A DNA stretch of 28,440 nucleotides from IMG/VR virus record IMGVR_UViG_3300032893_000234, positions 1 through 28,440 of that record, one strand, 5' to 3'. Positions 2,906 to 6,025 of this stretch are shown piece by piece. This DNA comes from a virus. The translations under genes and the position numbers were made by a program. How positions within the stretch are numbered: the stretch's first letter is position 1; each line of letters begins with the position of its first letter. The notes below the pieces were generated by a model, which worked only from the letters and a program-made list of their open reading frames with translations, was not told the DNA's origin and did no database searches.

Positions 2906-3418
2906 ATGAAAAGACATTCTGACAATCAACTTCTTAAATTCACTGAGGAAGAATTCAAACTTATTATAAGCACATCCTATACTATGACTGATGCCATTCG
3001 AGCTTTAAACTACAAGCACGTTACTAATGCCGCAAGAGAACAAATCAAAAGTTACGCAAACGAACTGAATATAGATTTGTCACATTTTGAGCGACAGAAG
3101 TTTGGAAGAGGACGACCTAAAGAAAATCCAGGATGGCGCAAACCAGTTGATGAAATCACTGATTCACGTTGTCTTAAAACTAGACTTATTAAGACTGGTA
3201 TTTTGGAATTTAAATGTTATCGCTGTGGCATAACAGAGTGGATGGGTGAACCAGCACCATTACAACTTGATCATATAGATGGAAACCATCGTAATAACGA
3301 TTTATATAATCTTCGCATCCTATGTCCTAACTGTCATGCACAAACCGAAACATTCTGTGGTCGTAATACCAAGAACACAAAACGAATGGCTCAACGAAAG
3401 GGGTCATCCCTAACCTGA
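2906..3418 (+). CDS. HNH homing-type endonuclease, 170 aa
   Basis: Probable selfish DNA endonuclease. The N-terminus (about residues 12-60) has a helix-turn-helix-like segment likely to bind DNA. The C-terminal HNH/zinc unit has Cys104-x2-Cys107, Asp122-His123 in LDHIDGNH, Asn135, and Cys140-x2-Cys143-His144 in CPNCHAQT. It is a paralogue of the HNH protein inside the tRNA-Leu intron: the same order of elements and the shared ending CPNCHAQT. It runs against the flanking leftward genes, starts in a predicted leaderless transcript and ends 19 bases before the end of whiB. No intron core is seen around it, so it is a free-standing HNH gene in this window. Confidence 0.9.
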   Translation: MKRHSDNQLLKFTEEEFKLIISTSYTMTDAIRALNYKHVTNAAREQIKSYANELNIDLSHFERQKFGRGRPKENPGWRKPVDEITDSRCLKTRLIKTGILEFKCYRCGITEWMGEPAPLQLDHIDGNHRNNDLYNLRILCPNCHAQTETFCGRNTKNTKRMAQRKGSSLT

Positions 3419-5241: not shown

Positions 5242-5311
5242 AACCTATCCTAATTTCATTTGTGCCCACAGCAGGACTTGAACCTGCACGCTATTACTAG
5301 CAGGGGATTTT

Positions 5312-5982
5312 CTTCCCACTATAGCTTTCGCTACCAAGTATGGTAAACTTGTTTGTGGGCTGGACTTTACCTTTACCATATTAGCATAGCTAACTTAGGT
5401 AGGAGCCGTCAAGTCTCTACACTTTCCTTGGAGATTTTTACTGTGAAATATAGACATTCTGAAGATGAGTTGAAAAAGGCTGTTGCTGAATCACTATCCT
5501 ACAGACAAGTCCTTTTAAAACTTAATATAGTTGCGGCGGGAGGGAATTACCAATGCCTTAAAAAGCGTATACAACAACTTGCTATTGATACATCTCATTT
5601 TAAGGGTAAGGGATGGAGCAAAAATGCAGTAATTGGACCACAGCGCCCAATTTCTGATTATCTTACCAACAAGGCATCTATTCTCTCTTACAAGCTAAAG
5701 AAAAGATTATTGAGAGAGGGATATTTCGACTATAAGTGCTATAAGTGTTTAAATACTGAATGGAACCAACAGCCGATTCCATTAGAGCTAGAACACATTA
5801 ATGGCAATCACTTAGACAATACTCTCGACAATCTAACCTTATTATGCCCCAACTGTCATGCTCAGACTTCTACATATCGAGGTAAAAATATCTCCAAGAC
5901 TTAGCTCGGTGTTGCCATTTTACAGGTTTCACCGAATTTGACTCCATCCACATAGAACTTTCGTTTCTATGCGCTCAAATTT
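5312..5982 (-). ncRNA. Self-splicing group I intron in tRNA-Leu(UAA)
   Basis: 671 nt. P1: exon CUU pairs with intron GAG, leaving the required U-G at the 5' splice site. P2: 5951-5957 with 5965-5971. P3: 5940-5945 with 5402-5407. P4: 5930-5934 with 5907-5911. P6: 5882-5898 with 5427-5441, with the HNH gene in its loop. P7: R strand 5411-5420 (AGAGACTT in the RNA) with S strand 5362-5368 (AAAGTCC). P8 is 5374-5401. P9: 5355-5360 with 5315-5319, carrying a GAAA tetraloop hairpin (5322-5333). The last intron base is G (5312). Layout and site suggest subgroup IC3. Splicing activity is inferred, not shown. Confidence 0.92.
5443..5904 (+). CDS. HNH homing endonuclease inside the intron, antisense, 153 aa
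   Basis: Probable homing endonuclease that would spread the intron by cutting intronless tRNA-Leu. N-terminal helix-turn-helix-like segment (about 8-50), then Cys99-x2-Cys102, His118 in LEHINGNH, Asn130, and Cys135-x2-Cys138-His139 in CPNCHAQT. Start GTG 5443 is chosen because TTGGAG lies 9 bases upstream; the frame is open back to 5353 but that part is intron core. It reads opposite to the tRNA and intron. Its ribosome site is in one arm of P6 and its stop region is next to the other arm. It needs its own rightward transcript; no convincing -10 was found in the intron core upstream. Paralogue of the HNH at 2906. Confidence 0.9.
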   Translation: MKYRHSEDELKKAVAESLSYRQVLLKLNIVAAGGNYQCLKKRIQQLAIDTSHFKGKGWSKNAVIGPQRPISDYLTNKASILSYKLKKRLLREGYFDYKCYKCLNTEWNQQPIPLELEHINGNHLDNTLDNLTLLCPNCHAQTSTYRGKNISKT

Positions 5983-6025
5983 AAGTCCCCGGTGTCTACC
6001 TATTCCACCATGCGGGCAACAACTA

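Follow-up and report, generated by a model that had tools for sequence, protein, structure and literature searches.

A phage tRNA-Leu(UAA) gene split by a group I intron and an antisense HNH gene from a family linked to tRNA-Leu

The split tRNA-Leu(UAA) gene and its group I intron

The window, that is the whole stretch of DNA analysed here, is a virus record of 28,440 bases. When introns are allowed, ARAGORN reports on its minus strand (6017-5263) a tRNA-Leu(taa) gene with a 671-nt intron, and an HNH endonuclease gene is found inside this intron on the opposite strand. The locus is composed of the following features.

5983-6017, minus strand: 5' exon of tRNA-Leu(UAA), last letters GGGGACTT, with U34 (ARAGORN with introns)
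5312-5982, minus strand: group I intron, 671 nt, terminal G at 5312 (RF00028, model R1, covariation)
5940-5945, minus strand: 5' strand of P3, GGAGUC, partner 5402-5407 (6 pairs, 100% of cells paired)
5907-5934, minus strand: P4-P5, CGGUG/CACCG and CC/GG (100% and 98.8% of cells paired)
5891-5905, minus strand: 5' strands of P6 and P6a, GCU and CUUGGAGA; the HNH stop codon (5902-5904) overlaps P6
5443-5904, plus strand: HNH endonuclease gene, 153 aa, GTG start, antisense to the intron and filling the P6a loop (phrog_10822 profile, motifs, predicted structure)
5421-5434, minus strand: 3' strands of P6a and P6, UCUCCAAG and AGU; read on the plus strand, the HNH Shine-Dalgarno GGAG
5363-5415, minus strand: P7, with the 3' strand of P3 and P8 between its arms (P7 100%, P8 98.2% of cells paired)
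5315-5359, minus strand: P9 with P9a and P9b (94.6%, 85.4% and 100% of cells paired)
5263-5311, minus strand: 3' exon of tRNA-Leu(UAA), first letters AAAATCCCC (ARAGORN and sequence)

The joined halves adopt in ARAGORN a normal class II tRNA-Leu fold, so that the two halves and the perfect GGGGA/TCCCC anticodon stem described in an earlier note on this DNA are recovered on the spliced gene. The placement of the exons also confirms the insertion site given there, between U34 and A35 (GGGGACTT / intron / AAAATCCCC), which is the site that characterises the tRNA-Leu(UAA) intron lineage (subgroup IC3). The 3' exon ends with the discriminator A at 5263, and CCA is absent from the encoded tRNA. In the window, the split tRNA-Leu is reported neither by ARAGORN with default settings nor by the Rfam tRNA model. 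Since default tRNA annotation overlooks split genes, the tRNA counts of phages are likely too low. As a separate observation, the phage tRNA-Leu(UAA) genes at loci L032, L048, L081 and L171 carry a short variable loop of class I size instead of the usual long Leu arm.

The Rfam Intron_gpI model (RF00028) matches positions 5992-5779 with 21.8 bits (E 0.0037), under its gathering score of 50 bits, which is a database threshold and not a biological feature; this low score is probably explained by the ORF of about 460 nt that interrupts the core in P6a. A covariance model, R1, was based on 41 tRNA-Leu introns, with the ORF loop excised, and matches the two halves of the window intron with 98.5 bits (E 7e-32) and 55.4 bits (E 1.7e-17), the window being itself one of the 41 model rows. 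The covariance search proposed in the earlier note thus yields a group I match to 5312-5982, below the cut-off with RF00028 and strong with R1.

The fold was scored as a hand-drawn P1-P10 structure on the alignment of the window intron with 40 other tRNA-Leu introns from phage and bacterial contigs, after removal of the ORF loop. Canonical pairs occupy 89.9% of the pair cells and double changes are seen in 48 of the 65 pairs; the covariation score is 0.428, against 0.138 after shuffling and at most 0.139 with slid partners. All the named helices are found in the window intron. The CTT.GAG pairing of P1, with its U.G at the 5' splice site, is invariant across the aligned introns (U8-G22 in 41/41), and the terminal G is an invariant column as well. 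P3 is paired in every one of the 41 sequences and has double changes at all six pairs, while the fifth pair of P7 (GACUU 5415-5411 with AAGUC 5367-5363) alternates between A-U, U-A, C-G and G-C. P6 and P6a are paired in 100% and 84.4% of the cells, with a duplex of -14.6 kcal/mol. The conserved P3-P9 core is present with its P3/P7 pseudoknot, and compensatory changes occur in P3, P7, P8 and P9. From the RF00028 match, the R1 match and this covariation, the insert is a group I intron, as had been claimed, and its fold is well supported. It is predicted to splice itself out of the tRNA-Leu precursor.

The antisense HNH gene

The endonuclease gene occupies a loop outside the intron core and is encoded on the complementary strand, in agreement with the earlier description of an antisense HNH gene in P6. 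Its most likely start is the GTG at 5443, nine bases past the GGAG at 5430-5433. As the start and the end of the ORF both lie in or beside the arms of P6/P6a, the same helix also holds the Shine-Dalgarno sequence and part of the stop codon, and a comparable layout is observed at several of the other antisense loci.

The protein matches the phrog_10822 profile with an E value of 7.9e-51; its Pfam HNH score of 19.5 bits lies under the cut-off of 21.4 bits. The residues C99, C102, H118, N130, C135, C138 and H139, conserved in at least 99% of the family rows, are all present in the window protein, and its H-N-H and both CxxC motifs are intact. AlphaFold (mean pLDDT 89) predicts an N-terminal three-helix domain followed by a C-terminal strand-strand-helix domain with the HNH layout. 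A comparison with solved structures by sequence gave no significant match, and the fold search returned weak matches alone, the best of which are HNH enzymes such as EcoKMcrA (E 0.048). A second HNH gene of phrog_10822 is found in the window at 2906-3418, on the plus strand between minus-strand genes, with no tRNA adjoining; on the HNH tree it groups with copies mostly located away from tRNAs.

The phage carrying this locus is well supported as an actinophage by its gene content: a WhiB gene is encoded in the window (E 1.9e-22), and the capsid protein and the portal are nearest to those of Streptomyces phages (52% and 37% identity). The apparent actinophage origin proposed in the earlier note agrees with these three genes.

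An HNH family linked to tRNA-Leu(UAA)

The genomic context of the HNH relatives is strongly biased. Among 55 non-redundant relatives, 51 are located at most 100 nt from a tRNA-Leu(UAA) gene, against a mean of 2.6% for the control, which consists of the other ORFs of at least 100 aa at the same 55 loci. Similarly, nearly all of the best 80 relatives in viral contigs adjoin tRNA-Leu or sit inside it. The HNH gene can lie downstream of tRNA-Leu, whether or not this carries the intron, upstream of it, or within the intron in either orientation, and most relatives are free-standing beside the tRNA gene. The sense orientation inside the intron is represented by L002, L120, L193 and L289, the last being a Bacilli genome. 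The antisense arrangement was considered unusual in the earlier note; this is only partly right, as it recurs beyond the window in five other phage contigs (L013, L025, L072, L109, L171) and in five gammaproteobacterial genomes (L251, L257, L274, L344, L345).

In cultured phages, the HNH relatives are found in tRNA clusters, often next to tRNA-Leu, as in Synechococcus phage S-CRM01; some lie near tRNAs of other specificity and others away from tRNAs, so that the linkage to tRNA-Leu is strong without being absolute. As the 51 relatives at tRNA-Leu(UAA) occur with or without an intron, the family is tied to the gene independently of the intron. This HNH family is a tRNA-Leu specialist, intron present or not, which is the main point missed by the earlier note.

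Two further observations concern the surroundings of these genes. In the spacer that separates tRNA-Leu from the HNH gene at L014, L010, L035 and L055, an inverted repeat immediately preceding the HNH start contains the sequence TATAAATA, which resembles a T4-type late promoter. At L021 (2789-2914, same contig as L336) and L048/L049/L051 (2831-2948, contigs of L337-L339), a tRNA-Leu(UAA) gene contains at U34|A35 a 41-nt insert in which the group I core is absent and the pattern ATCG-N14-GGTGGAT-N16 is shared; an HNH gene of the family lies just upstream in divergent orientation. A scan of the collection with the 41-nt insert pattern found these contigs only.

The family extends to bacterial chromosomes. 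At L251, L257 and L274, all from Gammaproteobacteria, the HNH gene again lies antisense in this loop of the tRNA-Leu intron. A search of 274 sampled gammaproteobacterial genomes detected the HNH gene in four, those of L251 and L274 and two more (L344, L345), always antisense in a tRNA-Leu intron. The context of L251 and L274 is uvrC-pgsA-tRNA, the names uvrC and pgsA being presumed from our own reading of the translated ORFs. In E. coli, the corresponding order is uvrC-pgsA-glyW-cysT-leuZ. This match to an E. coli-type chromosomal locus indicates that L251 and L274 are chromosomal tRNA-Leu genes and not part of a prophage.

Distribution and phylogeny of the intron

A search with a 16-base core pattern produced many matches in viral contigs and bacterial genomes. 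Among the matches listed, at least 201 ARAGORN tRNA genes contain a group I core motif, a set that includes a few duplicates of one contig, some shifted anticodon calls due to misplaced splice sites and a few long calls that are possibly wrong. The phage tRNA introns among these listed matches are mostly in tRNA-Leu(UAA), other tRNAs being included. Judged from such motif matches, group I introns in tRNA genes are widespread in viral contigs. One example comes from a cultured jumbo phage, Agrobacterium phage Atu_ph07 (MF403008; L003, 1253-1614), where a group I intron of 278 nt splits a tRNA-Leu(UAA) gene that is missing from the annotation; the 3' part of this split gene is overlapped by an annotated 'hypothetical protein'.

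Core-like matches in crAss-like phages and pelagiphages were considered as tRNA introns and rejected, being located in or beside protein genes instead. A similar core is indeed found in or beside pelagiphage capsid genes and the helicase and DNA polymerase genes of crAss-like phages (L004, L005, L354, L355, L359). The resemblance of the cores at tRNA and protein genes suggests a possible exchange between them.

The phylogeny of the core against cyanobacterial and bacterial introns, which the earlier note had called for, identifies phage and gammaproteobacterial introns as the nearest relatives. After removal of P6, the window intron pairs with that of phage L171 (support 97/83). It falls in a 14-row set (97/96) in which the eight tested antisense introns, without exception, are joined by three further introns from Gammaproteobacteria, two from phages and one with a sense HNH. 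The cyanobacterial introns constitute a clade of their own (100/100). In AU tests, a grouping of the window with cyanobacteria received p 0.50 and a single clade of antisense introns p 0.10, and neither of the two is rejected. The intron tree (184-212 columns) and the HNH tree (147 columns) are both poorly resolved. Acidobacteriota locus L275, whose P6 resembles that of the window, was considered as a remnant that had lost its HNH and was placed elsewhere by the tree.

The earlier note had suggested a horizontal movement of the ancient tRNA-Leu intron. The movement itself is supported, as the same intron-plus-HNH unit is present in phages and in the chromosomal tRNA-Leu of another phylum. The descent from the cyanobacterial and plastid lineage is not supported, given the separate clade and the phage and gammaproteobacterial nearest relatives, but the AU test does not reject it; on these trees a cyanobacterial origin of the window intron is neither supported nor excluded.

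Probable mobility of the element

The HNH tree and the comparison of related loci provide indications of mobility. On this tree, the 9 rows in the state 'beside intron-bearing tRNA, downstream' account for 9 changes, as poor a fit as with shuffled labels, which means that the presence of the intron varies freely around a persisting HNH gene. For the antisense position inside the intron, the supported branches force a minimum of 2 changes and the best tree gives 5. An empty site is seen in a pair of relatives that are not the window's own close kin: L014, with the intron, and L010, without it, align closely on both flanks of tRNA-Leu and differ by the intron. No close relative of the window phage was found in which the tRNA-Leu site is empty; the neighbouring 176-aa gene has no encoded relative, and a search with the capsid gene returned one identical short contig and three distant ones only.

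Taken with the linkage described above, it is quite probable that this phage-encoded tRNA-Leu(UAA) holds a mobile group I intron with a homing endonuclease gene antisense in P6a, from a family adapted to tRNA-Leu(UAA). Alternatively, the intron could be old and essentially immobile, an unrelated freestanding HNH having entered its P6a loop by chance with no functional link. Most of the sampled tRNA introns indeed have no HNH in or beside them (59/80 in viral contigs and 93/97 in genomes, in the pattern-based sets and among the matches listed), and the tree places several HNH entries into the intron. This explanation is nevertheless unlikely, because 51 of the 55 relatives are found at tRNA-Leu(UAA) regardless of the intron and because the antisense introns cluster even after the removal of P6.

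A spread of the intron by reverse splicing at the RNA level, independently of an HNH that converts only the neighbourhood of tRNA-Leu, is slightly less credible still. It would account for the introns of related core found, without HNH, after U34 or nearby in several other tRNA specificities of phages and bacteria, and for the scattered presence of the intron among close HNH relatives. It leaves unexplained, however, why intron and HNH form one physical unit in eleven antisense cases from phages and Gammaproteobacteria. A vertical or local derivation from the actinobacterial host's own tRNA-Leu is very improbable: phages often acquire host tRNAs and introns matching R1 occur in 19 of 296 sampled Actinomycetota genomes, but no typed intron of those 19 is in tRNA-Leu(UAA), so that the host phylum is not an evident source, and the nearest relatives are from phages and Gammaproteobacteria. 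The actinobacterial group I introns recorded at L367-L387, in about 6% of the sampled Actinomycetota genomes, are in other tRNAs (apparently Lys, Asn, Met and others).

The best reading of these comparisons is a putative homing endonuclease that targets tRNA-Leu and would have joined a tRNA-Leu intron more than once. We infer splicing, DNA cleavage, homing, direction of transfer and expression from the features of the locus and its relatives, and the proposed mechanism is as follows. The precursor would remove the intron by itself, leaving a normal tRNA-Leu. HNH would be translated from a separate plus-strand transcript, with its Shine-Dalgarno sequence inside the P6a helix. The enzyme would bind and cut or nick the tRNA-Leu(UAA) of co-infecting phages or hosts without the element, and repair would copy the tRNA and the HNH gene, plus the intron where present. 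In several lineages, the HNH gene may then have entered the splicing intron, where it would be harmless to the tRNA. Many HNH-bearing phages keep an intronless tRNA-Leu, which implies either that the target does not coincide exactly with the intron site or that these phages escape self-cleavage in another way. Antisense transcription through the intron could hinder splicing.

A broader proposal has about an even chance of being correct: tRNA-Leu(UAA) would be the niche of one HNH family in phages and bacteria, which would have captured the tRNA-Leu group I intron repeatedly, passing from beside the gene to the inside of the intron in either orientation, and would transfer the combined element between phages and the chromosomes of bacteria in different phyla.

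Relation to known systems and significance

The tRNA-Leu(UAA) introns of cyanobacteria, plastids and Gammaproteobacteria share with the window their tRNA and their group I nature, the gammaproteobacterial cases being the interrupted tRNA-Leu genes known in Beggiatoa and Thiomargarita (PMC4853749). The sampled cyanobacterial introns also share the site after U34, the core helices and the terminal G; in contrast to the window intron, found in a phage with an HNH gene in P6a, they lack this HNH family and belong to a separate clade. According to a 2014 review, all phage introns then known were in protein genes, despite the many tRNA genes of phages (PMC3984707). The main text of the papers on huge phages and on phage Atu_ph07 does not mention introns; Atu_ph07 and records of uncultured huge phages do carry such introns (L001-L003). 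The literature search covered few subscription papers, and phage tRNA introns may have been reported before.

Freestanding endonuclease genes between the tRNA genes of phage clusters are also represented by T4 SegB and the T5 F-Tfl HNH enzymes. Those genes are not known to lie inside introns, and the present family differs in its strong preference for tRNA-Leu(UAA). One relative, next to tRNA-Leu in a Klebsiella phage, carries an annotation of similarity to T5 TflIV. Bonocora and Shub reportedly described in 2001 an intron-encoded endonuclease of the PD-(D/E)xK type, I-SspI, in the tRNA-fMet intron of Synechocystis. It is likewise aimed at a tRNA anticodon region, with another nuclease fold and another tRNA, and is not known from phages.

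The Didymium nuclear rDNA introns provide a parallel for an endonuclease gene opposite the ribozyme strand, with both orientations at one site (PMC9548176). They combine a His-Cys endonuclease, P9 and eukaryotic rRNA, where the present system combines an HNH enzyme, P6a and a tRNA intron in phages and bacteria. How such antisense genes in nuclear rDNA introns are expressed while the host RNA stays undisturbed was called an unsolved question in the same paper, and a phage or bacterial system would offer a simpler setting for it than eukaryotic introns.

The many HNH relatives just outside an intron-bearing tRNA-Leu recall collaborative homing, in which a freestanding endonuclease gene adjoins a gene with an intron, and of which the origin was said not to be clear in 2023 (PMC10448857). 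Here the gene is a tRNA, and the intronless and HNH-inside-intron states occur in the same family. One HNH family therefore displays the intronless, adjacent and intron-internal states at one tRNA gene, in phages as well as on bacterial chromosomes, which makes the origin of collaborative homing directly testable. The HNH genes at tRNA-Leu in dozens of other phages and some bacteria constitute a natural series on the assembly of mobile introns. If the broader proposal is true, a single family would today show side by side the stages through which mobile introns form, from freestanding and collaborative to intron-encoded.
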